A stretch of DNA of 27,856 nucleotides from the IMG/VR virus record IMGVR_UViG_3300032134_000014, positions 1 to 27,856 of that record; one strand, given 5' to 3'. Both the position numbers and the translations under genes were made by a program. The notes under the pieces are model-generated. The model searched no databases, was not told the DNA's origin, and saw nothing but the letters and a program-made list of their open reading frames with translations. Source of the DNA: a virus. Shown piece by piece: positions 2,687-24,366 of this stretch (its first letter is position 1; every line of letters starts with the position of its first letter).

Positions 2687-3394
2687 TTGTCGGAGAATAA
2701 AACAGTTCATTTTGAAACTATACCACAATTAACGTTGGGGTTTGCTGGCATAGGCTTAGGTGAGGTGAATATTATTAATAAGTATATTGATGATAACACC
2801 AATAGATTGCCAGATTTATCGTCACAACTAGTAGGGCAAATAAAGCAAGATGAAAAATCAAAACAACTAGAATTTGATTTAAACGATACTGTTCCTAAGC
2901 AGTTAAGTAGGTTTTTTATTATGTGTGCAAAAGAATATGCTGCTGAACATCCAATGTCTGATCGTGTTAAAGAAATTATTGGGCCCAAAGAAGAATATGT
3001 TGTTAAAACAATGTGGTCGGTACATAGCTATGCTGGTGACTACAATCCTCTGCATGAGCATGGAACTGCCAGTGGAAGAGGCGTATCTATGATTGCATTT
3101 TTAAAACTCCCGTCACAAATATCTGAGATAGCAGACGACATGAAAGAGGGTGAAATCGGTGTGCAACATGGCAATTCTGGTAGTACAGATGGTTTAACTC
3201 AATTTGTTTGGGGTAGAGACAGTATGTATGATATACCTAGATTTAAACATCCTTCCTTTGGATATGTTCAGCCAGAAGTAGGTAAGGTTGTAATATTTCC
3301 AATTTGGTTGCTTCATCAAGTCGCACCATTTTTTGGTGAAGGTGAAAGGCGCACAATGTCTTGCAACATAGATATTATTAATAGTCATGTATGA
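2687..3394 (+). CDS. Putative 2OG-Fe(II) oxygenase, phage type (3 of trio)
   Basis: Protein of 235 residues. The start is taken as the TTG at 2687 because a GGAG lies 8 bases before it. Candidate metal ligands are H-E-H-G at about residues 123-126 and the distal His in W-L-L-H-Q-V at about 210, with E-R-R-T at about 220-223 supplying a possible 2OG-binding Arg. The order of motifs (L-H-E-H, a G-x-V-S-x-I-A-F-L-K-L strand, G-K-V-V-I-F-P-I-W-L-L-H) matches the same phage oxygenase family as the gene at 1461, so the two are likely related. Its 3' end overlaps the start of gene 62 by 8 bases. The substrate is unknown. Confidence 0.6.
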   Translation: MSENKTVHFETIPQLTLGFAGIGLGEVNIINKYIDDNTNRLPDLSSQLVGQIKQDEKSKQLEFDLNDTVPKQLSRFFIMCAKEYAAEHPMSDRVKEIIGPKEEYVVKTMWSVHSYAGDYNPLHEHGTASGRGVSMIAFLKLPSQISEIADDMKEGEIGVQHGNSGSTDGLTQFVWGRDSMYDIPRFKHPSFGYVQPEVGKVVIFPIWLLHQVAPFFGEGERRTMSCNIDIINSHV

Positions 3395-4204: not shown

Positions 4205-6691
4205 ATGAATTTTTATACAAATGTGCTTCAGTGGGGCAACAATCTTCTTGTTCGTGCTGTCGTAAATAATAAGCGTGAAAATTTTAGAATAAGATATTCT
4301 CCCACACTTTATGCTCCTGTAGAAAAGAAAACTCCATACAAAAATCTTGATGGCGGTTATGTCACTGATTTGACATTTTCTACCATGAAAGAAGCTAAGG
4401 AGTGGGTGGACAGTCATAAATCTCAGCCAGAACTTATATATGGTAATACTCAATATCCTTACACTTATATTGCTGACACTTACAAGGGTAGAGTTGATTG
4501 GGATTTAGAGAAGCTTCTCATAGTCACGATTGATATTGAGGTTCAATGTGAAAACGGATTTCCTTCACCAGAACTTGCTGAAGAAGAGCTTCTATCTATC
4601 ACCATTAAAAATCATCAGAGCAAACGTATTGTTGTTTGGGGTATTGGTGATTTTGAAACAGATCGTGAAGATGTAACATATATAAAATGTGAGAGCGAAG
4701 TACATCTACTAAAAGAGTTTCTTGTGTTTTGGGAAAAGTATTGCCCTGATATTGTTACGGGATGGAATTCTGAATTCTTTGATATACCATATGTTTGTAA
4801 TCGTATCAAAAAGTTGTTTGGAGAGGAAGAGCTGAAACGTCTGTCGCCGTGGGGTGGAGTAAAGGATAGATCATTTTATCGAATGGGCCGGGATCATCAG
4901 ATATATGATATACAGGGTATCGCTGCACTTGACTATTTTGATCTATATCGCAAGTTCACATATTCTGCTCAAGAATCCTATCGGTTAGATCATATTGCAT
5001 TTGTGGAATTGGGTGAACGCAAAGAAGGCAATCCCTTTGAAACTTTTCGTGAATGGTATACAAAAGATTATCAGTCATTCATTGAGTATAATATCAATGA
5101 CGTTGAGCTTGTTGACAAATTAGAAGACAAAATGGGTCTTATCCAATTATGTTTAACTATGGCCTATGATGCCAAGGTTAATTATGTGGATGTTCTCGGC
5201 TCTGTTCGCTATTGGGACATTCTGATATATAATTATCTGCGAGAAAAGAATATTGTTATTCCACCAAAACGTAAATCAGAAAAGATAGAAAAATTTGAAG
5301 GTGCTTATGTAAAAGACCCTCAAGTTGGTATGCATAAATGGGTTATGAGTTTTGATTTGAATTCTCTATATCCACATTTGATTATGCAATATAATATTTC
5401 ACCAGAGACACTTATGCCTAGTGAAATAAAAGAAGGAATGGTTGATAAAATACTTGATGGTAAGATTAGAAATACCACTGATCATTGCATGACTCCCAAT
5501 GGTGCATTCTTTCGGAAAGACAAACGAGGATTTTTGCCAGAAATAATGGAGACTATGTACAATGACCGTACAAAATACAAAAGACTTATGCTCGAGGCTA
5601 AGCAACAATATGAGGACACTAAAGACCCTCGACTACTCAAACACATTTCATTATATAACAACATCCAAATGGCAAAGAAGATTTCTCTCAATTCGGCGTA
5701 TGGTGCTATTGGGAATAATTGGTTTCGCTATTTCGATCTTATGGTTGCTACTGCCATTACAACATCTGGCCAGTTATCTATACGATGGATTGAGAAATCT
5801 CTTAACATATATCTCAATAAAATCTTGGAGACAAAAAATGAAGACTATGTTATCGCATCTGATACCGATTCGGTTTATATCACTTTTGACGTATTGGTTA
5901 GTAGGGTGTTTAAGGAGGGAGGAACACCTGAGAAAATTACCGATTTCTTGGACAAGGTTGCAAGTGAGAAGTTGGAACCTTTTATTCTCAAAAGTTATAC
6001 GGCTCTTGCTAAGACTATGAATGCATATGAACAAAAGATGCAAATGTCAAGAGAGGTGATTGCTGACAAAGGAATCTGGACTGCAAAGAAAAGATATATT
6101 TTAAACTCATGGGATATAGAAGGAGTTCGTTATAAAACTCCACAACTTAAAATCATGGGCATTGAAGCAGTCAAGTCATCCACTCCAGCTGTATGCAGAC
6201 AAAAAATTAAGGATGCATTGAACATCATCATGACAGGTGATGAGAAAGAATTAAATAATTTCATTCAAGAATTCAGAGATGAATTTATGAATTTGCCACC
6301 AGAAGATATTGCATATCCTCGCTCGGTAAATGGACTTAAAAAGTTTAGTTCCTCTAATGGTATGTTTGCAAAGGGAGCTCCTATTCATTGCAAAGGTGCA
6401 ATTCTATATAATCATTTGGTGAAGAAACACAAGATGTCAAATAAGTATCCTATTATACAGGAAGGCGATAAGATAAAGTTTCTGCATATGAAGCAACCTA
6501 ATATCTATACCTCAAGTGCATTTTCTTTTTTAACTTCTTTTCCAAAGGAACTTGACATTATTGATCGAATAGACTATGATGAACAATATACTAAATCGTT
6601 TGTAGAACCGTTAAGATTTATCACTGAGAAGATACTGTGGAAAATTGATGACAGCTATGGAACACAAGGTACGCTAGAGGATTTCTTTTAA
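4205..6691 (+). CDS. 43: DNA polymerase gp43 (family B)
   Basis: Replicative DNA polymerase with 3'-5' proofreading, 828 residues (T4 gp43 has 898). Exonuclease motifs: D-I-E at about 110-112, N-S-E-F-F-D ending at about 193, and Y-N-I-N-D with Asp at about 299. Polymerase motifs: A, D-L-N-S-L-Y-P at about 384-390; B, K-x3-N-S-A-Y-G at about 491-499; C, D-T-D-S at about 553-556. The C-terminus ends in L-E-D-F-F, resembling the clamp-binding tails of family B enzymes. The N-terminus (M-N-F-Y-T-N-V, then G-N-N-L-L-V-R) aligns with the start of T4 gp43, which supports the ATG at 4205 although no ribosome site precedes it. Confidence 0.98.
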   Translation: MNFYTNVLQWGNNLLVRAVVNNKRENFRIRYSPTLYAPVEKKTPYKNLDGGYVTDLTFSTMKEAKEWVDSHKSQPELIYGNTQYPYTYIADTYKGRVDWDLEKLLIVTIDIEVQCENGFPSPELAEEELLSITIKNHQSKRIVVWGIGDFETDREDVTYIKCESEVHLLKEFLVFWEKYCPDIVTGWNSEFFDIPYVCNRIKKLFGEEELKRLSPWGGVKDRSFYRMGRDHQIYDIQGIAALDYFDLYRKFTYSAQESYRLDHIAFVELGERKEGNPFETFREWYTKDYQSFIEYNINDVELVDKLEDKMGLIQLCLTMAYDAKVNYVDVLGSVRYWDILIYNYLREKNIVIPPKRKSEKIEKFEGAYVKDPQVGMHKWVMSFDLNSLYPHLIMQYNISPETLMPSEIKEGMVDKILDGKIRNTTDHCMTPNGAFFRKDKRGFLPEIMETMYNDRTKYKRLMLEAKQQYEDTKDPRLLKHISLYNNIQMAKKISLNSAYGAIGNNWFRYFDLMVATAITTSGQLSIRWIEKSLNIYLNKILETKNEDYVIASDTDSVYITFDVLVSRVFKEGGTPEKITDFLDKVASEKLEPFILKSYTALAKTMNAYEQKMQMSREVIADKGIWTAKKRYILNSWDIEGVRYKTPQLKIMGIEAVKSSTPAVCRQKIKDALNIIMTGDEKELNNFIQEFRDEFMNLPPEDIAYPRSVNGLKKFSSSNGMFAKGAPIHCKGAILYNHLVKKHKMSNKYPIIQEGDKIKFLHMKQPNIYTSSAFSFLTSFPKELDIIDRIDYDEQYTKSFVEPLRFITEKILWKIDDSYGTQGTLEDFF

Positions 6692-7273
6692 ATGAATACA
6701 AAAATTACTGACTTAGTTGATATGGATGAAGTTAAGTTAAACATGGCTCGTTGCACATGGAAACTTTTACGTGCTGGTCTTGAAGAGTGGACTCCAGAGG
6801 TTGCAAATGCAGTGCCTCGTGGAAAACTATATGAGATCAAATATATGTTGTCTCGTTTACCTTATACAATGAAGGGGGTGCCTTATGCACATTCATTAAC
6901 TGTAATCGAAAATTATGGATATGTTAAAAAGACTATAAAAGATACTGTAACTACTGATCACTTTTTTTGTTCTTACACCACTGGTGAATTTGCATTAGAT
7001 AATCCAGACACTTATCTTGCAGATGGTACTTTGGAAAAATTTTCAATGGAGTTATATCCCTTTACGTTTTTAACCAATTGGTTAACCCAAGAAGAAAATA
7101 AGAAACTAAGCAATTTGAAAGGAATAGAATTAACACAAGACAAATATGCTAAACTTGGTATAAAATTATATATAGATGACGAACAGGTAGAAAATCCCGA
7201 ATTGCCTGCAGGGTTTACAGAGTGGGAAGATGAAAAATATTTTCCCAACAGTCTCTATAGACTTTGTGCTTAA
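6692..7273 (+). CDS. Unknown protein downstream of gene 43
   Basis: Protein of 193 residues that I do not recognise. It has no signal peptide and no membrane segment. It is mixed in charge with many aromatic residues, for example a Y-P-F-T-F-L-T-N-W-L segment in the C-terminal half followed by an acidic tail region (D-D-E-Q-V-E-N-P-E). The ATG directly follows the polymerase stop (TAA-ATG), so translation is probably coupled to gene 43. It ends 8 bases before the chosen start of the methyltransferase gene. Position suggests an accessory protein of replication or DNA modification, but no motif supports either. Confidence 0.7.
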   Translation: MNTKITDLVDMDEVKLNMARCTWKLLRAGLEEWTPEVANAVPRGKLYEIKYMLSRLPYTMKGVPYAHSLTVIENYGYVKKTIKDTVTTDHFFCSYTTGEFALDNPDTYLADGTLEKFSMELYPFTFLTNWLTQEENKKLSNLKGIELTQDKYAKLGIKLYIDDEQVENPELPAGFTEWEDEKYFPNSLYRLCA

Positions 7274-7281
7274 AGGACAAT

Positions 7282-8496
7282 ATGAGGTATTATCGTTATA
7301 CGCTGGATGATTTAAAAGAGTCGTCAGACAGAAAACTATTCACCTACATATCATTCTTTGCAGGCGGCGGTGGTTCTTCTGCTGGTTATAAACTTGCTGG
7401 TGGTGACTGTCTATTTGTAAATGAATTTCAGCAAGTTGCAGTTGATACTTATCTTGCGAACTGGCCAGATACTCCACATATATGTGGTGATATTAAAAAT
7501 GTCACAGGAAAACAGATTATGGAAATGACAGGCCTTAAAGTTGGTGAATTGGATATTCTCGACGGTTCTCCACCATGTCCGCCATTTTCAATGTCCGGCA
7601 CAAAACAAAAAGGTTGGAACAAGGAGAAGATGGCATATGGTATGAAGCAACAGAATATTGAAGACCTAACATGGGAGATGATTCGTATTGCTGGTGAGAT
7701 GAAACCAAAAGTTATCATATGCGAGAACGTCAAAGGTTTAACGATGGAATATGCAAAGCAGCATTTAGATCGTATGGTAACAGACTTTGAAGGTCTTGGT
7801 TACACAACTAACTTTAAGGTTCTTAATGGTATACATTTTGGAGTACCACAGAAACGCCAGAGAGTGTTTATTGTGTCAGTACGCAATGATGTTATGGATG
7901 ATATTGGCATGCCGTGGATGGCGATCTATAATGGGAACATATTTCCAGATGGTGCAATGCATGAGGAACCTACACTAGAAGATGCAATAGGTGATCTACG
8001 ACTCGATAACGAAAATAATGTTGAGGCATATGAGTTGCGTGAGACAATGAAGAAAAGTGCTAAATATAAATGGTTAAAACGTCTACCCAAGAATCCTGAT
8101 AAGGTTGTATCAGTGGGTTCGGATGTAGTAGGGCCCTGGTACGACAAGGTGATTGCACATAGAAAGAAGTGGGGAAAAAGTATTCCAGAAGCAAAGAGTT
8201 CATTCTATCAGAGTCGTAGAGTTCCTTGGCATCAAGCAAGCCATACATTGTCAGAACAGGGCCTTATGACCTCATTATCAGTTCATCTTCATGTTGAAGA
8301 AGATCGTGTATACACCACCAAGGAAGCAAAACGAATAATGACTTTGCCAGAAGATTACATTTTAATAGGAACATTGAATGAGAAACTTGCAAGAATTGGA
8401 TTGATGGTAGCACCGATGATGATGAAATATCTTGCAGAAAGTATATATGAGAAAGTGCTGAAGGGCTATCATGAAATACATAACAGCAAAAACTGA
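7282..8496 (+). CDS. C5-cytosine DNA methyltransferase
   Basis: Transfers a methyl group from S-adenosylmethionine to C5 of cytosine in DNA; 404 residues. Motif I is S-F-F-A-G-G-G-G-S-S-A-G at about 24-35. The catalytic loop is G-S-P-P-C-P-P-F-S with the nucleophile Cys at about 99. E-N-V is at about 148-150, and Q-K-R-Q-R-V-F-I-V (motif VIII) at about 190-198. Late motifs A-K-R-I-M-T-L-P-E-D-Y and a C-terminal V-A-P-M-M closing motif are present, so the enzyme looks intact. The ATG at 7282 is preferred to the TTG at 7264 because AAAGGA lies just before it. It overlaps the TET-like gene by 26 bases, suggesting 5mC is the substrate of the next enzyme. Target sequence unknown. Confidence 0.95.
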   Translation: MRYYRYTLDDLKESSDRKLFTYISFFAGGGGSSAGYKLAGGDCLFVNEFQQVAVDTYLANWPDTPHICGDIKNVTGKQIMEMTGLKVGELDILDGSPPCPPFSMSGTKQKGWNKEKMAYGMKQQNIEDLTWEMIRIAGEMKPKVIICENVKGLTMEYAKQHLDRMVTDFEGLGYTTNFKVLNGIHFGVPQKRQRVFIVSVRNDVMDDIGMPWMAIYNGNIFPDGAMHEEPTLEDAIGDLRLDNENNVEAYELRETMKKSAKYKWLKRLPKNPDKVVSVGSDVVGPWYDKVIAHRKKWGKSIPEAKSSFYQSRRVPWHQASHTLSEQGLMTSLSVHLHVEEDRVYTTKEAKRIMTLPEDYILIGTLNEKLARIGLMVAPMMMKYLAESIYEKVLKGYHEIHNSKN

Positions 8497-9418
8497 TCTT
8501 GGAGAAAAAGAAACATTTGAAAGGTGGAATGGTAAATTCTACCAAGAATCTGATCTAGATCAGATTGTTTATGCGACAGAAGATACTGTTGTAATGCGAC
8601 CTGATGCTACTCTTGATGGTAAAGGTGTTCCTATTGCATATGTTATTACAAATGCATTTCCCAATGACAACATAAGGAACATTTTGTATTCTATTGAGGA
8701 AACTTCAGTGATGAGAGCAAATTGTTCTGGCCCTATTGATAAAGAAGAAATGGCTGCAAAGGGATTAATTGAAGGAAAAGATTATAAATTACGAAGCCCC
8801 AATTCTTATTATGTAAAAACAAAATCTGGTGGTTGGGGAATGATTGCTTATGCAAATGAAATTAATTCTGTTATGGTTGGTGTAAAAAGAGGACGATTTA
8901 CAGGAAAGATCAATATTTCGAATCCTGATAGGTGGAAAGAATTAAAAGAACTTTGCTATTATAATGAAGAGGCAATGAAGAAAGCTGATCCTGAGTTACA
9001 TCAACGCCAAAGGAAATTTGCAGAAGAAACAATCAGCACAGAACATCGTCATGGCATGATAACAACTTTGAGTGCTAATCGGTATAGTGCATTACAAAGT
9101 AAAGCCATGAGTGTTCATAGTGATGGTAAAGATGTAGAATATACAACTATGTGCTGCTTCCGACAAGGTGATTATGAAGGGGCATACTTATCTTTTCCAA
9201 GGTGGGGAGTGGGATTGGATTTGCCAGATAATAGTGTATGTATTGCAGATTCACAATCTCTGCATTGCGTCACAGATATTCGTGGATCAGGACAACGATT
9301 TACCACAGTAGCATATACTGATCGCTCTTGTGCTACCTTGGGAAACATGGGAAAAAGTGAAAGATTGATTGGAAGATTTGCGAAAAAAGAAATTGGTAAT
9401 TTAGAAGAGTTTATTTGA
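8471..9418 (+). CDS. TET/JBP-like 2OG-Fe(II) dioxygenase (5mC oxidase)
   Basis: Protein of 315 residues. The C-terminal third has the dioxygenase core: H-S-D at about 216-218, a strand G-A-Y-L-S-F-P-R-W, then G-L-D-L-P-D-N-S-V, a distal His in D-S-Q-S-L-H-C-V at about 265, and Arg in G-S-G-Q-R-F-T-T-V-A-Y at about 276. This order and spacing fit TET/JBP nucleic-acid dioxygenases better than prolyl hydroxylases. Phage TET enzymes that oxidise 5mC to 5hmC next to a methyltransferase and glycosyltransferases are known from marine viral DNA. Here the gene overlaps a C5-cytosine methyltransferase by 26 bases, with GAAGGG as ribosome site, and a T4 alpha-glucosyltransferase homologue lies 2 kb on. 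The ~200 N-terminal residues are not recognised. Confidence 0.75.
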   Translation: MKYITAKTDLGEKETFERWNGKFYQESDLDQIVYATEDTVVMRPDATLDGKGVPIAYVITNAFPNDNIRNILYSIEETSVMRANCSGPIDKEEMAAKGLIEGKDYKLRSPNSYYVKTKSGGWGMIAYANEINSVMVGVKRGRFTGKINISNPDRWKELKELCYYNEEAMKKADPELHQRQRKFAEETISTEHRHGMITTLSANRYSALQSKAMSVHSDGKDVEYTTMCCFRQGDYEGAYLSFPRWGVGLDLPDNSVCIADSQSLHCVTDIRGSGQRFTTVAYTDRSCATLGNMGKSERLIGRFAKKEIGNLEEFI

Positions 9419-9485: not shown

Positions 9486-10928
9486 ATGACCCCTATTATT
9501 GAAGATGAAGACCGATTTGCCAACACACTACTAACAAATTGTGTTGCCGCAATATTAGTATGGAATGATGTTCTACAATGCGATATTTCATATTACTTTA
9601 GAAAAACTTTTGGAAAACCATCTAAGGTGGAAGAACTAAAAAAGTATAGAGGTTCTTCACAGGGTAAGAATAGAGCAAATCCAAAAATTTTAAAAGCAAT
9701 AGAGAAATCATCAAAACCACCAAGGATTAGAGTTTTAGAGCATAATGTTCTTCATCATGATTTAGGTTTTCATGAGCAGAAAGCTGTGATGTTACACAAC
9801 TTTCCAATAGGCGGTCATGACAAGAAGTCAAAAGATTGTTTCAATGAGAAATACCCAACTGATGGCATTTCAAAAGATTGCATGAGGAGTCACATTGCTG
9901 CTGATCTTTTGAGAGAAAAGATAAAGAAGCACCAAGACCCAAATGATGCATTTAAGTTTCCAACTGGCTTTTCAACTAAAGAAGAAATAAAATATTTGAA
10001 AAAAAATAATTTATTCGTGCAAGCTAGATGGGAAAAAGAGGGCAGTAACGATGCAGTTGAATATTACAAAATAAAAATGGAGGAAAAACCATATCCTAAT
10101 GAATGGTTAGGGAAGTTTTGGTTATTAATGCCTAGGGAAGGTAGTAATCAACCAATTGGTACAGGCAGTAATTATCACCCAAGAATTTTAGACGGTAATC
10201 AAAGTGGTGCAGCTTGTATCAGAGTTCCAGATATGCCTGGTTTGAATGATATCAGAATACCATATGAAGATCACTGTCTAATAAACGAAACTGATTTAGA
10301 AACAATAGGTAATGAATTAAATGCAGAGCCGGAGATAAAATCAGATTATGTTGATGATGAGGACATATTAAGAAATTTAAGAAATACATTAGTAAGAAAT
10401 AAATTATTTACGAAGAAAGGAAATCCACAAATTGATCATTATCTGGTGAACAAACTCTTTAAGCCTTTACACAAAACCAACAGAGAAATACGCTGGTATA
10501 AGAATCAAATTAAAAAAGAGTATAAAGAAGAAAAAGAAACAAAAGAACGACTCCAACTAGGATACTATGACTTTCGTGAAACTGCTCTAAAAGATAATGA
10601 TGGAGATAATAATAATAAAAGAAAGTTTGATGAACTTGTAAAACCTATAGGTTTAGGCAAATTTTGCAAATGGCATCAAGTTACTGATGGTTTTGAAGAA
10701 AAAATTTCAAAGAGGATACAGCATGATAAAAATGGAGTCACGCCAAAGAAACTTTTGACCTTTGTAACATTTCCAATGGAAGCTGGTTATCTTAAAAGTA
10801 AGAACGATGATAAATTTTGGGAGTGGGAAATAAAAAAGTTTAGTGAAGTTTGTGAAGTAACAATAGCTTTATTAAATCCAACTGGCAAGGAGTACACTTT
10901 ATTTGACCAATCTAGTATTCCAAGTTAA
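9486..10928 (+). CDS. Unknown 480-residue protein in the modification cassette
   Basis: I do not recognise this protein. It is rich in Lys, Asp and Asn, with no signal peptide or membrane segment. A His-rich stretch, H-N-V-L-H-H-D-L-G-F-H-E-Q-K-A-V at about residues 85-100 and then I-G-G-H, could bind metal, but it fits no motif I can name. A basic/acidic helical stretch near the middle (K-K-E-Y-K-E-E-K-E-T-K-E-R) may be coiled coil. It has its own promoter and overlaps the following glycosyltransferase gene by 26 bases, so the two are probably co-expressed. Its place between the TET-like oxygenase and two glycosyltransferases suggests a role in making or attaching the DNA modification; this is inference from context only. 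Confidence 0.8.
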   Translation: MTPIIEDEDRFANTLLTNCVAAILVWNDVLQCDISYYFRKTFGKPSKVEELKKYRGSSQGKNRANPKILKAIEKSSKPPRIRVLEHNVLHHDLGFHEQKAVMLHNFPIGGHDKKSKDCFNEKYPTDGISKDCMRSHIAADLLREKIKKHQDPNDAFKFPTGFSTKEEIKYLKKNNLFVQARWEKEGSNDAVEYYKIKMEEKPYPNEWLGKFWLLMPREGSNQPIGTGSNYHPRILDGNQSGAACIRVPDMPGLNDIRIPYEDHCLINETDLETIGNELNAEPEIKSDYVDDEDILRNLRNTLVRNKLFTKKGNPQIDHYLVNKLFKPLHKTNREIRWYKNQIKKEYKEEKETKERLQLGYYDFRETALKDNDGDNNNKRKFDELVKPIGLGKFCKWHQVTDGFEEKISKRIQHDKNGVTPKKLLTFVTFPMEAGYLKSKNDDKFWEWEIKKFSEVCEVTIALLNPTGKEYTLFDQSSIPS

Positions 10929-11583
10929 TATAAAACCTAACGGAGTTAAAACTTCTGGCAGAAAAAAGTTTGCATACTCTAATTCTCTTTATGATTTTTC
11001 AAATCAAAGAGCTAAAGATTATGCAGATAAAGTTGGTGCAGATTATTTTTGTTTGAATAACACAGATTGGTTAGGTAACAACTACGCACCTTGCTATCAT
11101 AAGTTGTATGTTTATGAATTACTCAATAAATATGAGAAAGTATTTTACTTAGATTCTGATGCTATAATTACAAAGTTGTGTCCAGATATATTTAAGTATA
11201 GTAAATTTTCAGCTGTGTTAGATAATGCGATACACACTCCAAGTGGTAAAAAAAGATTACAAAGAAAGTTAGATATACATAATATAAAAAAACAACATGA
11301 TTATTTTTGTAGTGGAGTAATACTATTTGATAAAAAGTTTTTACAAACAACTAAACAATATTGGAAAGATGAATTAGATTATTGGAAAGACATTAAAAAT
11401 GGCCAACATGACCAATCTACACTTAATGTATTGATTTCAAAATACTATGGAAAATACAATTTATTAGATGCAGATTGGGGTGCTCATTGGAAAATTGGTA
11501 AATTCATAAAACACTATAGTGGGCCCACACAAACATCAGAATGGACAGAAGAAAAGTTTTTGAGTTGGGAAGAAAAAATATGA
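10903..11583 (+). CDS. Glycosyltransferase, GT8/glycogenin-like
   Basis: Protein of 226 residues with a GT-A-type layout: first strand N-L-V-F-Q-V-N-I, then a D-Y-F-C-L-N strand, Y-A-P-C-Y-H-K-L-Y-V, and F-Y-L-D-S-D-A-I-I with the metal/nucleotide-sugar D-x-D at about residues 84-86. Later come F-C-S-G-V-I-L-F and H-D-Q-S-T-L-N, both typical of GT8-like enzymes. It would move a sugar from a nucleotide sugar to an unknown acceptor. The TTG start at 10903 is supported by AAGGAG 10 bases upstream and by the protein beginning at its first strand. It overlaps the neighbours on both sides (ATGA with the next). It could add a second sugar to glucosylated 5hmC, or act on a host glycan. Confidence 0.8.
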   Translation: MTNLVFQVNIKPNGVKTSGRKKFAYSNSLYDFSNQRAKDYADKVGADYFCLNNTDWLGNNYAPCYHKLYVYELLNKYEKVFYLDSDAIITKLCPDIFKYSKFSAVLDNAIHTPSGKKRLQRKLDIHNIKKQHDYFCSGVILFDKKFLQTTKQYWKDELDYWKDIKNGQHDQSTLNVLISKYYGKYNLLDADWGAHWKIGKFIKHYSGPTQTSEWTEEKFLSWEEKI

Positions 11584-12755
11584 AAGTGGCTATTGTTCTT
11601 GGCAGAGGCATCGAAGGGTGCGGTGTTACAAAATACACCGTAGAGCTAGAAAGATGGTTACTTAATAATTCTTATAATCCTACAATATATGCATCTAAAG
11701 ATAAAAAATGGTCTAGGAATGATGCACATAAAATTAAAAACTTAGTTCATGTTCGTTTTGATAAAGATAGTTTTGATGAAGTATATGAGGGGTGTAGAAG
11801 TTCTGATATAATAATTTTTAATTCGTTACCATCTATAGGCCACAGTAAAAGATGTCAAGATAATTTTGCAAAACTTTTAAATTTAAGTGTTTGTAAAATC
11901 TTAATACAACACGACCATAATAAATCTTCATTAAAGAGAAATGCTCTACTACAAGATTCATATGAAAAATCAGATATACTATTTGCACATTCCACCACAG
12001 GAGATTTTGCTGATATGGTAAATACTCCAAATCTATTTGACATGAGAGATAGAAAAATTAATCTGATGCAGCCAGGTATATCATTTGTAGATTATGAAAA
12101 GTATTATAAGCCTATTAGTGAGCAAGACAAAAACCATCACAAATGGATAGGTAGAACTGCAAGATGGAAAGGTTATGATTTAATGTTTAATTTTCATAAC
12201 AACTATCTTAAAGATTTAAACCAACTAACTACTTTTGAGGGTATTGAGAAAAGTCCAGTTTTTATAGAGTTTAAAAATGAATACGAGTTTTATGATGAAT
12301 TAGGACAAAGCCCAGAAGATATTAATTATCAAGAAAGGTATGGAAAAAAACCAACTGTTTTTTCTCAATATATAAATTCAGAATTATTAGACAGATTATC
12401 CAAATGTGGTTTTGGATATCAACTAAGTATATTGGATAATAGATTTATAGAAAAGTCTTTAGAATTTACTCACTTAGAAATTGTTGCTGTAGGCGCAATA
12501 CCAATATTTAGAAAAGAGTATGGTGATGCTTGTATTCACCGTCATTATGATAAACCTCTAACAGAATTAGATAGTGGGACAGTGTGGTTATCTAATGATA
12601 ATATGGAAGAATGTAAAAACTTAATAGACGAATTATTAAATGATGATATTTTGAGAGATGAGTATAGAAATAAAGCATTTGAATTTTATTCCCATTATGA
12701 TTCTAAATATGTCATGGTTGATTTGATGAAAATTGTGGATGGTACAAAATGCTAG
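11580..12755 (+). CDS. agt: DNA alpha-glucosyltransferase (T4 alpha-GT homologue)
   Basis: Protein of 391 residues (T4 alpha-GT has about 400) that matches the T4 enzyme along its length. The N-terminus G-R-G-I-E-G-C-G-V-T-K parallels T4 A-R-G-L-E-G-C-G-V-T-K. Q-H-D-H at about 110-113 is shared, as are W-I-G-R-T-x-x-W-K-G at about 189-198, Y-I-N-S-E-x-L-x-R and G-F-G-Y-Q-L-S near 264-283, S-L-E-[FY]-T-H-L-E at about 293-300, and P-L-T-x-x-D-S-G. T4 alpha-GT transfers glucose from UDP-glucose to 5-hydroxymethylcytosine in DNA (GT-B fold). Start: ATG at 11580 overlapping the previous stop, with GGGA upstream; the in-frame ATG at 11541 would add 13 residues not seen in T4. AT-rich codon use. Confidence 0.92.
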   Translation: MKVAIVLGRGIEGCGVTKYTVELERWLLNNSYNPTIYASKDKKWSRNDAHKIKNLVHVRFDKDSFDEVYEGCRSSDIIIFNSLPSIGHSKRCQDNFAKLLNLSVCKILIQHDHNKSSLKRNALLQDSYEKSDILFAHSTTGDFADMVNTPNLFDMRDRKINLMQPGISFVDYEKYYKPISEQDKNHHKWIGRTARWKGYDLMFNFHNNYLKDLNQLTTFEGIEKSPVFIEFKNEYEFYDELGQSPEDINYQERYGKKPTVFSQYINSELLDRLSKCGFGYQLSILDNRFIEKSLEFTHLEIVAVGAIPIFRKEYGDACIHRHYDKPLTELDSGTVWLSNDNMEECKNLIDELLNDDILRDEYRNKAFEFYSHYDSKYVMVDLMKIVDGTKC

Positions 12756-12782: not shown

Positions 12783-13805
12783 ATGAGTGATTTTTTAAAA
12801 AATGTAATTAAGGATGTAGGAAATGAATATGCATCTTTGGTGATTGACGGTGTAGAAGCGGGTGATGTAGATTCCTTCATAGATACGGGCTCTTACATTT
12901 TCAACGGACTACTATCTGGTTCGCTTTACGGTGGACTGGCTGCTAATAAAATTACTGCTCTTGCGGGGGAGAGTGCAACTGGTAAGACTTACTTTCTTAT
13001 GGGCATTGTTAAAAACTTTCTTGACAAAGACCCCAATGCTGGTGTAATTTACTTTGAAAGTGAATCTGCAATCACAAAGCAGATGGTAATGGACAGGGGT
13101 ATAGACCCTAATCGTATGGTCATGATGCCTGTGACAACCGTACAGGAATTTCGTACACAATCTCTAAAGGTTCTGGACTCGTATCTTGCACAGAATGAAG
13201 CAGACAAAAAACCTTTATTCTTATGTCTTGATTCACTTGGTATGCTGTCTACTACCAAAGAAGTAGAAGATACTGCTGATGGTAAAGAGACAAGAGATAT
13301 GACAAGGGCCCAAATCCTTAAAGCTACATTTCGTGTGTTGACTTTGAAGCTGGGTCGTGCCAAGGTTCCTATGGTTGTCACTAATCATACCTATGATGTT
13401 GTTGGTTCCATGTTTCCTCAAAAAGAAATGGGTGGAGGCTCTGGTTTGAAATATGCTGCATCATCTATCATCTATCTGTCCAAAAGGAAAGAGAAAGACG
13501 GTACAGAGATTGTTGGTAATATTATTCATTGCAAGAATCATAAATCACGTTTGACTGTAGAGAATAAGATGGTTGATGTTCGTTTGACATATGACAAAGG
13601 ACTTGATAGATATTATGGTTTGTTAGAACTTGCAGCGAAGTATGAGATATTCAAGAAATTGGCAACACGATACGAGTTGCCTGATGGGATGAAGCAATAT
13701 GGTAAAACAATTTTGAACAATCCAGAAACATATTTTACTGAAGAGATTATGCAAAAATTAGAAACTGCTGCAATGAAAGAATTTAAGTATGCTACAAGTG
13801 ATTGA
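12783..13805 (+). CDS. uvsX: UvsX recombinase (RecA-like)
   Basis: Strand-exchange ATPase for phage recombination and recombination-dependent replication, 340 residues (T4 UvsX has about 390). Walker A is G-E-S-A-T-G-K-T at about 62-69, unlike T4's G-P-S-K-S-F-K-S and nearer classical RecA. Shared T4 features are V-I-Y-F-E-S-E at the glutamate strand, [10 protein letters not shown] (Walker B), D-M-T-R-A-Q, V-V-T-N-H-T-Y and [10 protein letters not shown]. The C-terminal region is shorter than in T4 and lacks its long acidic tail. AGAAGGG precedes the ATG. The 3' end overlaps the next gene by 17 bases. Confidence 0.95.
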
Positions 13806-20604: not shown

Positions 20605-23600
20605 ATGCGTAAATTTAGAGATTTGGTAGAGGCAAAAGAAACTATTGTTTTTGCCTTTGGTCGTTTTAATCCACCTACAACTGGCCATGAGAAATTGATT
20701 CAAAAAACTGCTTCAGTTGCTGGGTCTAATCCTTTTCGCATTTATCCATCTTTTACCACCAATCCTAAGAAAGACCCTCTTCCTCATTCTATTAAAGTAG
20801 CATATATGAGAAAGATGTTTAAGAAGTATGCGAAAAATATCATTGCAGATAATGACGCAAAAACAGCAATACACATAGCAGAAAAACTCTATAATGAAGG
20901 GTTTAAGAATCTGGTTATGGTTGCTGGTTCTGATCGTATCAAAGAGTTTTCTACACTTCTAAACAGATATAACGATGCACCAGATAAGAAGGGAAATCAA
21001 CTCTTTAAGTTTGATTCTGTTAATGTTGTGTCTGCTGGAGAACGTGATCCTGATGCCGAGGGTGTAGAAGGTATGTCTGCATCTAAAATGAGAGCTGCTG
21101 CTTCTGATGGAGATATGGATTCATTTTTACAGGGAGTTCCTTCTGGATTTGCTGATGGTAAGAAACTCTATAGAAATGTTCGCAAGTATATGGGTATTCG
21201 TGAAGAGCGTGACATGGGTGATATGAATAATTATGAAGAACTACGAGACGCATATCTTACAGGTAAGGTCTGGAATGTAGGTGATGTTGTAGAAGCTAAT
21301 GGGATTGTTGGTGAGATTGTTCGCAAGGGTACGAATTATCTTTCGTTAGTATCAGAGGATGGTAAGGTTCATAAAGCATGGTTGCATGAGATTAATGAAG
21401 GTGTAAAAGATTTGCCGCCTCATTTGCAGAAGCTAGTTAAGCAGTTGGAAAAGAAAGAAAAGGAACTAGAGAAAAAGGGATTGAAGGTCAAAACTTTTAT
21501 CTATAACCCAGATACAGGAAAGCCTGATATTGAACTTGGTGAAGAAGTTGAGCTTGATGAAATTGCTCGTTTCTTGGCAAGACCTCTTACGCCGTATGCT
21601 GCTGCCGCCGGCAGGTATGCTGGCCGAGCTATAAAGAAATATTTTTCCAAGGCGGATGCTAAACCTAAAACTCATAAGGGCCCAGGTAAACCTGGGCAAA
21701 GTAAACAATGGAAACCATATAAGAAAGGCCAGGCTAAGAAAGAATTTGATGAAATCGAAACTCAACTTCAGAGTAAAGGCACACCAAAAGATGTAAAAGT
21801 TAAATTAAAAAAATTAAATACTCCTGCTAAATTAGATGCTGCAGCCGCTAGAGGTAAGGAAATAAAAGTATCGCCTGCTCATTCTCGTCGTCTTGGAAAT
21901 ACTGGACAAACACCTACAAAGGGCCCAGGAGCTTTAGAAAAACCAAAGGTAGATAGAGTATCTAAACAATTGGACCCCGGCGGTTCAGGTGCAGAAAAAC
22001 CTTTAGCCATAGATAGGGGCCCAGGAAAAGCTCCGTGGGTGTTAGGTGGAAATACACGGTTGCGAGTTAGTGCAGATAAATTACAGCAGAATACGCCAGT
22101 GAGAGTGATAAAAAATGAATTTAAATTGGAAGAAGTTGAGCTTGATGAAGGAAAAAAAGAATCATATCCAGTACGGCAGTTAATTGATCCTAAAAAAGAG
22201 GTGCTGGTTGTCAAGAAGAATAGTGTCATTGTTATTGATAAGATTAACCAAGACTATTATTTGAAAAAGGGTTGGTCACTTGCTGAAGAAGATGTGCTTG
22301 ATGAAAGAAATTACAAATTAGAATATGCGAATTACCAAGGTAGACCAGAACAGATTGAACGGCGCTCTTCTAGGAACAAAGCTCGGAGGGCAATGGGTGA
22401 TAAAGCAGTTAAGGGTATGGACGTTGGGCATATTGATAATGATCCTATGAACAATGATCCCAGTAATTTGGGCAACGAAGACCCATCTGAGAATCGTAGA
22501 GAGCCACGGTTGAGAGAAGATAAACTTAATGAGGAGTGGTGGAATAAGGTATTTGCAAAAATTAGTCAGATGAGTCATCCTAAATCTTATGGAAAAATGA
22601 TCCAAGATTATGCTGAACTAATGAAACAAGACAAATATAGAAAGCATCCAAATATGGCTGCTGATAAAATTGCTCGTGAATATGGTGGAGTTGGTGGCAG
22701 AGAATTTATTAAGTATATTAATAAATTGGTTGCTAAGAAGATACTTCCTCAAGAGCTGAAGGCAGAGTACGAAATGGAGAATACTATCATGTTTACATTC
22801 AAAGAATTTGTGGATGAAATACAAGAAGATACGAAACAACAGGCACCAATCGGTGATCCGCCTCTAGGTGTTACTAAAAGCCAATGGGCTAATCCTGCTG
22901 TTCGAAAAATTATTAGAGATAAGGGTGTTATGTCTAAAGGGCCAAATGATAAGGTTGATGCTAAAACAACACCACCGCCAAAAGCAGAAATTAAACCATC
23001 TGCTCCAGCCGCAAAGCCTGAAAAAGTTAAAGCACCAGTTGCTAAAACAGCACCACCGCCAAAAACAGAAATTAAACCATCTGCTCCAGCCGCAAAGCCT
23101 GGCAAAGTTAAAGCAACTGCTGCTAATACAAGAAATTATGACAAAACCCTTGCAATACAGAAAAGACTTATTGCACAAGGTGCTAAGATTAAAGCAGATG
23201 GACTTATGGGTCCAAACACTAGAGCTGCTATGAAAAAGTTTGGGTCTAAACCTGTTAGTCCTAAGAAAACTACAGTTCCAAAATCTACTGCTCCAGTGCC
23301 ATCCATGCCAAAAGTACCAGTTAAAAAGGTAGAGGCAAAACCTTTAGCGCCACCGCCCAAAACTAAACATGATGTTTCTACAAGAGCAGGAAGACGGAGC
23401 TGGTATAATGCAAGGGTGGAAAGGGCTAGAAAAGCAGGACATCCAAATCCAACCATGTATGCTTCACAAGCTGCACTTGAAACTGGTTGGGGCAAATCAA
23501 AATCAGCTAAAGGTAATTTAGTTGGAATGAAGGCTCGCAAAGACCAAGCTGGTGAAACAAAAAGTCATACAGAATATGTTAAAGGCAAAAAAGTAAAAGG

Positions 23601-24366
23601 AACTGGTCGTTTTGCAAAATTTGGTTCTGAAGCGGGTGGTATTGCACAGCATGGTAAAGAATGGAAAGGCGGATTAACAAAATCTGGTGGTCGTAAATAT
23701 GCAACTGATCCAGATTATGAGAAAAAGATTGCAGCTATTACCAAAGGTTATGGTACTAAATCTATCACCGATTCATTTGGTGTTAACGAAGACCAAGTTG
23801 TATCAAGAAAAGTATCAGATACGGGTGCTAAAACAACAAAATTTAAAAGTGGAGCAACTGCAACAACTGATGCCGGTGGTACTGTTCATAGAAGCGCAAC
23901 AGGTCAGCAGACAAAGCATGTATCCCCAAGAATAGGTGGAGTGCGAACTACTACTAGACCTTCTGTTGCAGCAGGGCCAGGGCCTCGTGGAGTAACAAAA
24001 ACACAGGATTATAAAGGTAAAGTAAGGGGTGCGAATGTTGATCTGACCGTTGGGCCCGCCGGAAAAGCTAAAAGGTTAACTACACAATCGAAAGATGTGA
24101 AAGTAAGTGCTACACCAAAGCAAGCAACCGTAAAGGTTGGCCCGGCTAGTGTTACTCGTAAAATTACAAAAGAAGAAATGACTTTTAAAGATTTTGTAAA
24201 TCAAATACAAAAGGGCCCTATTAAAGAAGTTCTTGCTAAAGATGCAGATATGGGGGATTATATCGATGATTTCGCTAAATCTGATGCACCACAATTCAAA
24301 GGCAAGTCTAAGGAAAAACGTAAAGAGATGGCAATTGCTGCTTACTATGCGAAGAAGGAAAGTTAA
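20605..24366 (+). CDS. Head polyprotein: cytidylyltransferase-like, HNH-like, peptidoglycan-binding and glucosaminidase domains
   Basis: Protein of 1253 residues starting M-R-K-F-R-D-L-V-E-A (capsid-targeting pattern, cut after L-V-E). Residues ~11-196 are a cytidylyltransferase/NMN-adenylyltransferase fold: G-R-F-N-P-P-T-T-G-H at 19-28 and M-S-A-S-K-M-R at 157-163. A small SH3/KOW-like part follows (~210-265). E-E-V-E-L-D-E cut-site motifs lie at 313-319 and 509-515, and E-E-D-V-L-D-E at 561-567. Residues ~569-639 look HNH-like (G-H-I-D-N-D with His ~609, then N-D-P-S-N-L and S-E-N-R-R-E). After a Pro/Ala repeat, ~841-880 is a peptidoglycan-binding domain (D-G-L-M-G-P-N-T-R-A-A-M) and ~923-1048 a FlgJ/GH73-type glucosaminidase (Q-A-A-L-E-T-G-W-G-K-S, Glu ~959). 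I infer a packaged polyprotein cut by the prohead protease, with one module attacking the cell wall. Confidence 0.8.
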   Translation: MRKFRDLVEAKETIVFAFGRFNPPTTGHEKLIQKTASVAGSNPFRIYPSFTTNPKKDPLPHSIKVAYMRKMFKKYAKNIIADNDAKTAIHIAEKLYNEGFKNLVMVAGSDRIKEFSTLLNRYNDAPDKKGNQLFKFDSVNVVSAGERDPDAEGVEGMSASKMRAAASDGDMDSFLQGVPSGFADGKKLYRNVRKYMGIREERDMGDMNNYEELRDAYLTGKVWNVGDVVEANGIVGEIVRKGTNYLSLVSEDGKVHKAWLHEINEGVKDLPPHLQKLVKQLEKKEKELEKKGLKVKTFIYNPDTGKPDIELGEEVELDEIARFLARPLTPYAAAAGRYAGRAIKKYFSKADAKPKTHKGPGKPGQSKQWKPYKKGQAKKEFDEIETQLQSKGTPKDVKVKLKKLNTPAKLDAAAARGKEIKVSPAHSRRLGNTGQTPTKGPGALEKPKVDRVSKQLDPGGSGAEKPLAIDRGPGKAPWVLGGNTRLRVSADKLQQNTPVRVIKNEFKLEEVELDEGKKESYPVRQLIDPKKEVLVVKKNSVIVIDKINQDYYLKKGWSLAEEDVLDERNYKLEYANYQGRPEQIERRSSRNKARRAMGDKAVKGMDVGHIDNDPMNNDPSNLGNEDPSENRREPRLREDKLNEEWWNKVFAKISQMSHPKSYGKMIQDYAELMKQDKYRKHPNMAADKIAREYGGVGGREFIKYINKLVAKKILPQELKAEYEMENTIMFTFKEFVDEIQEDTKQQAPIGDPPLGVTKSQWANPAVRKIIRDKGVMSKGPNDKVDAKTTPPPKAEIKPSAPAAKPEKVKAPVAKTAPPPKTEIKPSAPAAKPGKVKATAANTRNYDKTLAIQKRLIAQGAKIKADGLMGPNTRAAMKKFGSKPVSPKKTTVPKSTAPVPSMPKVPVKKVEAKPLAPPPKTKHDVSTRAGRRSWYNARVERARKAGHPNPTMYASQAALETGWGKSKSAKGNLVGMKARKDQAGETKSHTEYVKGKKVKGTGRFAKFGSEAGGIAQHGKEWKGGLTKSGGRKYATDPDYEKKIAAITKGYGTKSITDSFGVNEDQVVSRKVSDTGAKTTKFKSGATATTDAGGTVHRSATGQQTKHVSPRIGGVRTTTRPSVAAGPGPRGVTKTQDYKGKVRGANVDLTVGPAGKAKRLTTQSKDVKVSATPKQATVKVGPASVTRKITKEEMTFKDFVNQIQKGPIKEVLAKDADMGDYIDDFAKSDAPQFKGKSKEKRKEMAIAAYYAKKES
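21550..21648 (+). repeat. Duplicated small-residue helix segment, copy 1 (other copy 26478-26580)
   Basis: Codes V-E-L-D-E-I-A-R-F-L-A-R-P-L-T-P-Y-A-A-A and then A-G-R-Y-A-G-R-A-I-K-K. The second copy, in the gene at 24399, reads E-L-D-E-F-A-R-L-V-A-R-P-L-V-P-Y-A-A-A-A then G-T-A-A-G-Q-A-I-R-K. Both begin at an L-D-E site, so cutting would release this segment at a new N-terminus. The A/G-rich stretch could form a tightly packed or membrane-associated helix. Confidence 0.75.
22963..23124 (+). repeat. Two-copy 81-base in-frame tandem repeat (Pro/Ala/Lys linker)
   Basis: Units at 22963-23043 and 23044-23124, each 27 codons, differ at only a few bases. They code K-T-[TA]-P-P-P-K-x-E-I-K-P-S-A-P-A-A-K-P followed by a Lys/Val/Ala tail, a flexible linker in front of the peptidoglycan-binding domain. 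The two halves are similar enough to suggest a recent duplication. Confidence 0.9.

Follow-up and report, generated by a model that had tools for sequence, protein, structure and literature searches.

How is the acceptor of a T4-type DNA alpha-glucosyltransferase (AGT) made in a marine T4-like phage that encodes this enzyme in one gene run with a DNA cytosine C5-methyltransferase (MT) and a TET-like dioxygenase? In T4 the acceptor, 5-hydroxymethylcytosine (5hmC), comes from nucleotide-level hydroxymethylation by gp42. The question is raised by IMG/VR virus record IMGVR_UViG_3300032134_000014, of which the whole stretch analysed, 27,856 bases, is called the window here. According to its gene annotation, the window holds a T4-like replication region, in the order end of gp45, gp44, three 2OG-oxygenase-like genes, gp62, RegA, gp43, a gene for 193 residues, a five-gene run, and then UvsX followed by a DnaB-like helicase (gp45, gp44 and gp43 being named by likeness to T4 proteins). 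The five genes of the run, encoding MT, TET, a 480-residue protein, a family-8 glycosyltransferase (GT8) and AGT, are tightly packed, with overlaps of 26 bases between MT and TET, 26 bases between the 480-residue gene and GT8, and 4 bases between GT8 and AGT (ATGA, the ATG of AGT lying on the stop of GT8). The relevant features are the following.

4205..6691, + strand: gp43 DNA polymerase, 64% to phage Melnitz; flanks the module on the left and serves to mark the lineage of the phage
7264..8496, + strand: putative DNA cytosine C5-methyltransferase (MT); frame opens with TTG at 7264, likely start ATG at 7282 (MRYYRYT); PF00145, 5.5e-55
8471..9418, + strand: predicted TET/JBP-type Fe(II)/2OG dioxygenase, from Tet_JBP matches of relatives, active-site residues and predicted fold
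9486..10928, + strand: 480-residue protein with no assigned family, from a slot of varying content that separates TET from the sugar transferases
10903..11583, + strand: family-8 glycosyltransferase (GT-A type), a candidate for adding a second sugar; PF01501, 2.5e-7, above cut-off
11580..12755, + strand: T4-type DNA alpha-glucosyltransferase (AGT), as judged from Pfam, PHROG and PDB sequence matches and the tree
12783..13805, + strand: UvsX recombinase, which borders the module on the right; PHROG 97 UvsX, 7.7e-89

An MT with catalytic motifs, a TET and glycosyltransferases thus lie adjacent in the window, as an MT-TET-GT cassette. The earlier note had placed the AGT beside an MT-TET pair; the three do share one gene run, but the genes for the 480-residue protein and GT8 separate TET from AGT. 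We consider it highly probable that the run represents a post-replicative hypermodification module, in which an AGT of the gp42-associated kind was joined once to the MT-TET route and then passed among such phages.

Two other regions of the window also encode enzymes of possible interest. Three more 2OG-Fe(II) oxygenase-like genes lie in tandem upstream of gp62 (1461-2093, 2094-2675 and 2687-3394, the middle one scoring below the cut-off), and a 1253-residue open reading frame (20605-24366) combines a cytidylyltransferase-like N-terminus with an internal glucosaminidase domain.

The AGT open reading frame (ATG at 11580, stop at 12753-12755, + strand, 391 residues) matches PF11440 as the sole Pfam-A family at E<=0.001 (6.1e-67, 226.6 bits where the cut-off is 25, covering profile positions 1-353 of 355), and matches to polysaccharide glycosyltransferase families were absent from this Pfam-A search. 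It is also matched by PHROG 2888, alpha-glucosyltransferase (1.6e-86), and a PDB sequence search at E<=0.001 returned the three sequences of T4 AGT only (E 2.2e-78, residues 1-382). Identity to T4 AGT is 38% in a 12-row alignment. The agreement from N- to C-terminal motifs noticed earlier is borne out, since EGCGVTK and SLEFTHLE (SLEYTHLE in T4) both fall within the aligned residues 1-382. The window AGT keeps H114, D115, H116, R204, E306 and E311 of T4, which are invariant across the aligned gp42-linked AGTs. Among 27 positions of T4 AGT picked for their conservation in two alignments (A1 and A4), 26 are identical in all covering rows of AGTs linked to MT and/or TET (20 rows, referred to as TET-type), and all 27 in 78 gp42-type rows. 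The protein branches within the phage AGT tree (69 rows, polysaccharide transferases not being among them). By these sequence comparisons its relationship to the T4 enzyme is of orthologue grade, and a chance resemblance is excluded. Two of the 20 TET-type rows have Leu in place of His114; comparison with alignment A1, in which the window AGT and the other displayed rows have His, identifies them by elimination as L033 and L034. The position is otherwise invariant in the phage AGTs checked.

We infer the sugar, anomer, acceptor and activity of the window AGT from this relationship. T4-like phages do vary in their sugar, as in the arabinosylation described for RB69 (PMC6024577), and the second transferase next to AGT varies too. 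An enzyme that uses the same acceptor with another sugar (e.g. arabinose, GlcNAc or galactose), yielding a product other than alpha-glucosyl-hmC, is nevertheless unlikely, as the window AGT keeps every tested position that is conserved between T4 AGT and the gp42-types.

The variation in the second transferase follows a simple pattern. GT8, whose DxD motif (LDSDA) is invariant in five of five aligned sequences, occupies the slot that is taken in relatives by TAGT, the type of the beta-glucosyl-HMC-alpha-glucosyltransferase of T2/T6. The AGT records with MT and/or TET number 22 among the matches listed, 14 with both in view; seven have a TAGT, five a family-8 enzyme, none has both and ten have neither in view. 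TAGT (PF20691) directly adjoins AGT in sister loci, passes the Pfam cut-off in four of four cases tested, and is related to a beta-glucosyl-HMC-alpha-glucosyltransferase of a T4-like (Klebsiella) phage (E 1e-9, 24-25% identity). In T6 it is such an enzyme that adds the second glucose (PMC11078745). By analogy, GT8 of the window may add a second sugar, an assignment made with less assurance than that of AGT.

Another variable position lies between MT/TET and AGT, where the gene differs by phage (window 9486-10928, L007:4345-6114, L009:8412-10001 and L034:2502-3815), the types being the 480-residue protein, a ResIII-type helicase with an HNH-like end, another ResIII-type helicase and a 438-residue protein without assignment. 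The 480-residue protein has no Pfam or PHROG match, and its only relatives are found in L008 (59%) and L203 (24%); a pattern scan of IMG/VR for relatives returned none, though these two were already known. Its AlphaFold model, based on three sequences, is poor (pLDDT 41). The slot genes are perhaps nucleases that spare modified DNA.

To establish what accompanies AGT elsewhere, 129 AGT places were compiled from scan loci and phage records, after removal of duplicate loci of the same record. The window query gave 18 loci and two alignments gave the best 80 of 381 and the best 80 of 372 (79 distinct), so that all tallies are samples nearest to the query, as is the best 80 of 293 used for TET. 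Labels for gp42, MT and TET were assigned by profiles within the AGT locus; five cyanophage AGT records were counted in the searches and stand outside the labelled set. Among the matches listed, 80 places have gp42 (78 by locus and two phage records with PF00303, the gp42 family, by whole-record search), 20 have MT and/or TET, 29 have neither, and none has both kinds. The 20 MT/TET-type places, window included, comprise 13 with both genes, five with TET only and two with MT only, again among the matches listed, and the linkage recurs in varying order (MT-TET-x-AGT, MT-x-AGT-TET and MT-TET-AGT-TAGT). Most of the places with neither label have no more than 1.1 kb of sequence before AGT, or belong to T4-type records in which gp42 falls outside the 10-kb flank; one (L028) ends 170 bases after AGT, and the two AGT-like rows of phage G belong to a single record, which has two PF00303 genes. 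A true exception is L052, in which AGT lies on 14.9 kb (4.2 kb upstream, 9.5 kb downstream) with neither gp42 nor TET; it maybe has a third source of acceptor, or a broken pathway.

The gp42 relatives beside other AGTs keep Cys148 and Asp179 of T4 gp42 in 77 of 77 cases among the matches listed. Asp179 presumably marks the use of dCMP, and by their sequences these relatives are dCMP hydroxymethylase types. In 70 of 85 gp42-labelled loci (duplicates included; among the matches listed) a PF00145 C5-methyltransferase directly follows AGT. These enzymes (e.g. L016:5613-6812, L037:11230-12423 and L083:11221-12411) are divergent, with PC, EN and QxRxR kept, and their retention in phages that make hmdCTP is unexpected.

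The claim that MT and TET are the only visible source of 5hmC holds for the window as a 27.9-kb fragment, in which no PF00303 gene was found. The genome is probably larger than 140 kb, as its nearest isolate has 141 kb, and in T4 gp42 and AGT are about 10 kb apart; a gp42 outside the fragment could then supply 5hmC at the nucleotide level, with AGT acting as in T4 and MT-TET making a separate mark. We regard this as quite improbable, because none of the 129 AGT places, among the matches listed, has gp42 together with MT or TET in its locus, and gp42 lies mostly within about 2 kb of AGT in environmental gp42-type loci. Moreover, PF00303 was absent from the TET-type records searched whole, including contigs of 61,484, 48,581 and 44,533 bases, and from the complete genome of the isolate, Methylophilales phage Melnitz.

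The AGT phylogeny marked by gp42 or TET, as the earlier note had suggested, was constructed with IQ-TREE from 69 representatives, the other 60 of the 129 rows being left out as more than 95% alike to a kept row or at most 200 residues long; the outgroup was a pair of AGT-like genes (34-39 bits) from Bacillus phage G. The TET-type rows (10 after thinning, plus the unlabelled L028) form one clade (100/99) that lies inside the gp42-types: its sister is a gp42-type AGT, L035 (98/95), and T4-type and other gp42-types surround it. The label thus changes once on the tree, and since all TET-type AGTs fall in one clade, the mutual exclusion with gp42 represents approximately one evolutionary event, seen many times. 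A change from gp42 to TET is the likely direction, though not a firm one, because the outgroup branch is very long (3.24 changes per column in the root branches).

The distribution of AGT over phage lineages is different. In the TET scan (best 80 of 293), numerous T4-like phages show MT-TET next to gp43 and no AGT. Among the matches listed, 21 TET loci have flanks of 2.5 kb or more in each direction, and seven of these carry AGT. On a gp43 tree made by a quick method (43 of 65 rows kept, 22 left out), the AGT-bearing TET phages require four changes. They are scattered within one clade among AGT-less TET phages and Melnitz, while two of them (L012 and L014) lie on a separate polymerase branch. 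L007, which has AGT, and L185, which has MT-TET, are nearly identical in gp43; the 6.5 kb of L185 contain no AGT, and neither do the 4.1 kb that follow TET in L186, a record like L185. The nearest gp43 neighbour of the window, L147, owes its AGT-less label solely to a contig that stops 84 bases beyond TET, and other contigs labelled 'TET only' in this tree are also short. A gp44 tree was set aside as too sparse, with identical rows in different groups. Because AGT is scattered on the gp43 tree and occurs in two polymerase lineages, it appears to have been plugged into MT-TET phages and to move as a module. Such a module would be gained and lost on a background of MT-TET, in many cases together with a second sugar transferase of exchangeable type. 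The modular swap proposed in the earlier note, of AGT onto an MT-TET route, is therefore supported by genomics, through the single state change on the AGT tree and the scatter on the gp43 tree.

A small gene resembling P-loop kinases is present in some MT-TET loci that show no AGT (L020:7557-8090 and L148:3196-3726), with weak AAA_18 matches below the cut-off. The one in L148 is a member of a set of 15 similar genes from TET loci, among the matches listed; such genes possibly provide an alternative decoration of 5hmC.

With 26.3 bits against Pfam Tet_JBP, the window TET stays under the cut-off of 34.9 and is not assigned to that family by sequence. The TET of a relative (L012) passes with 51.1 bits, and Tet_JBP was detected at E<=0.01 in all 14 aligned members. 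H216-x-D218, H265 and R276 are invariant in two alignments (14 of 14 and 24 of 24 rows); by analogy to TET, we take H216, D218 and H265 to be the iron triad and R276 the arginine that binds 2OG. No PDB match at E<=1 could be found by sequence, either with the single protein or with a 14-row profile. A predicted model (pLDDT 82.5) has human TET2 as its best solved match (Z 19.3 over 250 residues, 3.4 A). The top 13 rows of the fold search are all TET2, CMD1 and NgTET1 (Z 19.3 to 15.8, with CMD1 and NgTET1 at about 16 to 17), the next row being a 2OG-Fe(II) oxygenase with Z 14.3, and AlkB having 13.7; CMD1, NgTET1 and TET2 are also the top ranks in Foldseek. By its modelled fold and invariant active-site residues, the product of 8471-9418 is a TET, and its C5-cytosine MT partner suggests, by analogy, 5mC as substrate.

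The MT retains the nucleophile Cys in SPPCPPFS, as well as ENV and QKRQR. Its nearest solved relative is SpCmoX (8yf3, E 7e-79), followed by HhaI, which raises the question whether it is a carboxymethyltransferase, with TET and AGT acting on something else. In SpCmoX the carboxylate is bound by Arg350, the counterpart of which in HhaI is Asn304 (PMC12783734). A Leu is found in this column in the window MT (codon 8401-8403, in RIGLMVAP) and, among the matches listed, in all 65 of the 67 TET-paired MTs that cover it. Because of this Leu the window MT is not a carboxymethyltransferase by the Arg350 test, and the neighbouring TET fits methyl transfer; a CmoX identity was rejected and that reading is given very little credence. 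From its sequence, the window MT would transfer methyl. The Leu is a possible diagnostic residue of TET-coupled methyltransferases. Phage TETs reportedly prefer Gp5mC, as stated by Burke in 2021, and 20.8% of the C in the window falls in GpC. SpCmoX acts on GC motifs (PMC12783734).

GT8 enzymes are common in the synthesis of surface sugars, and for those of pelagimyophages a role in modifying the host surface (O-antigen) has been proposed, with the argument that restriction systems are rare in SAR11 (PMC7029224). That AGT and GT8 of the window would act in this way is hardly plausible, as AGT matches only the DNA alpha-glucosyltransferase family, shares its gene run with DNA-modifying genes within the replication region, and is recurrently linked to MT/TET or gp42.

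We propose that the post-replicative module operates as follows. First, MT would methylate cytosines of the phage DNA at short sites, perhaps GpC, as its family and motifs suggest. Secondly, TET would oxidise 5mC in DNA to 5hmC, in keeping with its fold and active-site residues. Thirdly, AGT would transfer glucose from UDP-glucose to 5hmC in alpha linkage, on the basis of its orthology to T4 AGT. Finally, and least firmly, GT8 may add a second sugar, as TAGT would in sister phages. With MT and TET in place of gp42, 5hmC would arise post-replicatively and be confined to methylated sites.

The window resembles T4 in that its AGT belongs to the same family from end to end, with the same conserved residues and T4-like replication genes around it. 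It differs from T4 in that gp42 was not found in the fragment, MT and TET being present instead, and in that AGT shares a gene run with the enzymes that would make its acceptor. Phage methyltransferase-TET-glycosyltransferase cassettes were reportedly described by Burke in 2021. Phages are stated often to carry a C5-methyltransferase, a TET and a couple of glycosyltransferases, leading to glycosylated cytosine (PMC12730594, citing Burke 2021). Compared with these known cassettes, the first transferase of the window is a T4-type AGT of the gp42 lineage, in a T4-like phage, and the swap is visible in a tree. The nearest isolate, Melnitz (MZ577097, complete, 141,548 bases), shares the order gp43-MT-TET-unassigned gene...UvsX with the window (59.5% for TET, 64% for gp43), but has MT-TET and no AGT. 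In the searched text of its description MT is a plain methylase, and words starting with 'dioxygenase' or 'glucosyl' do not occur (PMC9004378). The SpCmoX/CmoA/CmoY carboxymethylcytosine system likewise uses a C5-methyltransferase homologue to make a handle for later additions (PMC12783734); in the window MT the key Arg is Leu, and the handle would come from oxidation by TET. Other accounts, as far as their available text goes, include a survey of AGT, BGT and TAGT in 753 phages that does not treat TET as a source of 5hmC (PMC13216743), a report of no TET in jumbo phages (PMC7824862), a 2OGFeDO protein in freshwater pelagimyophages, where GT8 of pelagimyophages is read as a surface enzyme (PMC7029224), and a beta-glucosyl-HMC-alpha-glucosyltransferase with thymidylate synthase in pelagiphage podoviruses (PMC9599517). 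A T4-type AGT in an MT-TET cassette was not found in a literature search that reached few subscription papers. The kind of system is already known; that a known T4 enzyme would here serve a different source of acceptor is well supported by comparative genomics.

As the TET route would modify methylated sites only and leave the nucleotide pool unchanged, it would have different gaps in protection and a different exposure to defences that read alpha-glucosyl-hmC. GmrSD is one such defence. Another is Brig1 (PMC11078745), which excises that base. A tentative extension, to which we give somewhat less than an even chance, is a plug-in sugar code of marine T4-like phages, in which MT-TET marks chosen sites after replication, AGT adds the first glucose only there, TAGT or the family-8 enzyme adds the next sugar, and swaps between close relatives change the product met by defences that recognise particular bases (e.g. 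Brig1). Whereas nearly all cytosines are glucosylated in T4, the modification would then be limited to specific sites. The TET-type AGTs, which would have evolved on 5hmC made by TET, would also be useful for sequencing chemistry. The best-studied family of DNA glucosyltransferases would not be tied to the nucleotide-level route to 5hmC, and the decorating enzyme and the enzymes that make its acceptor would represent separate modules, recombined by evolution.
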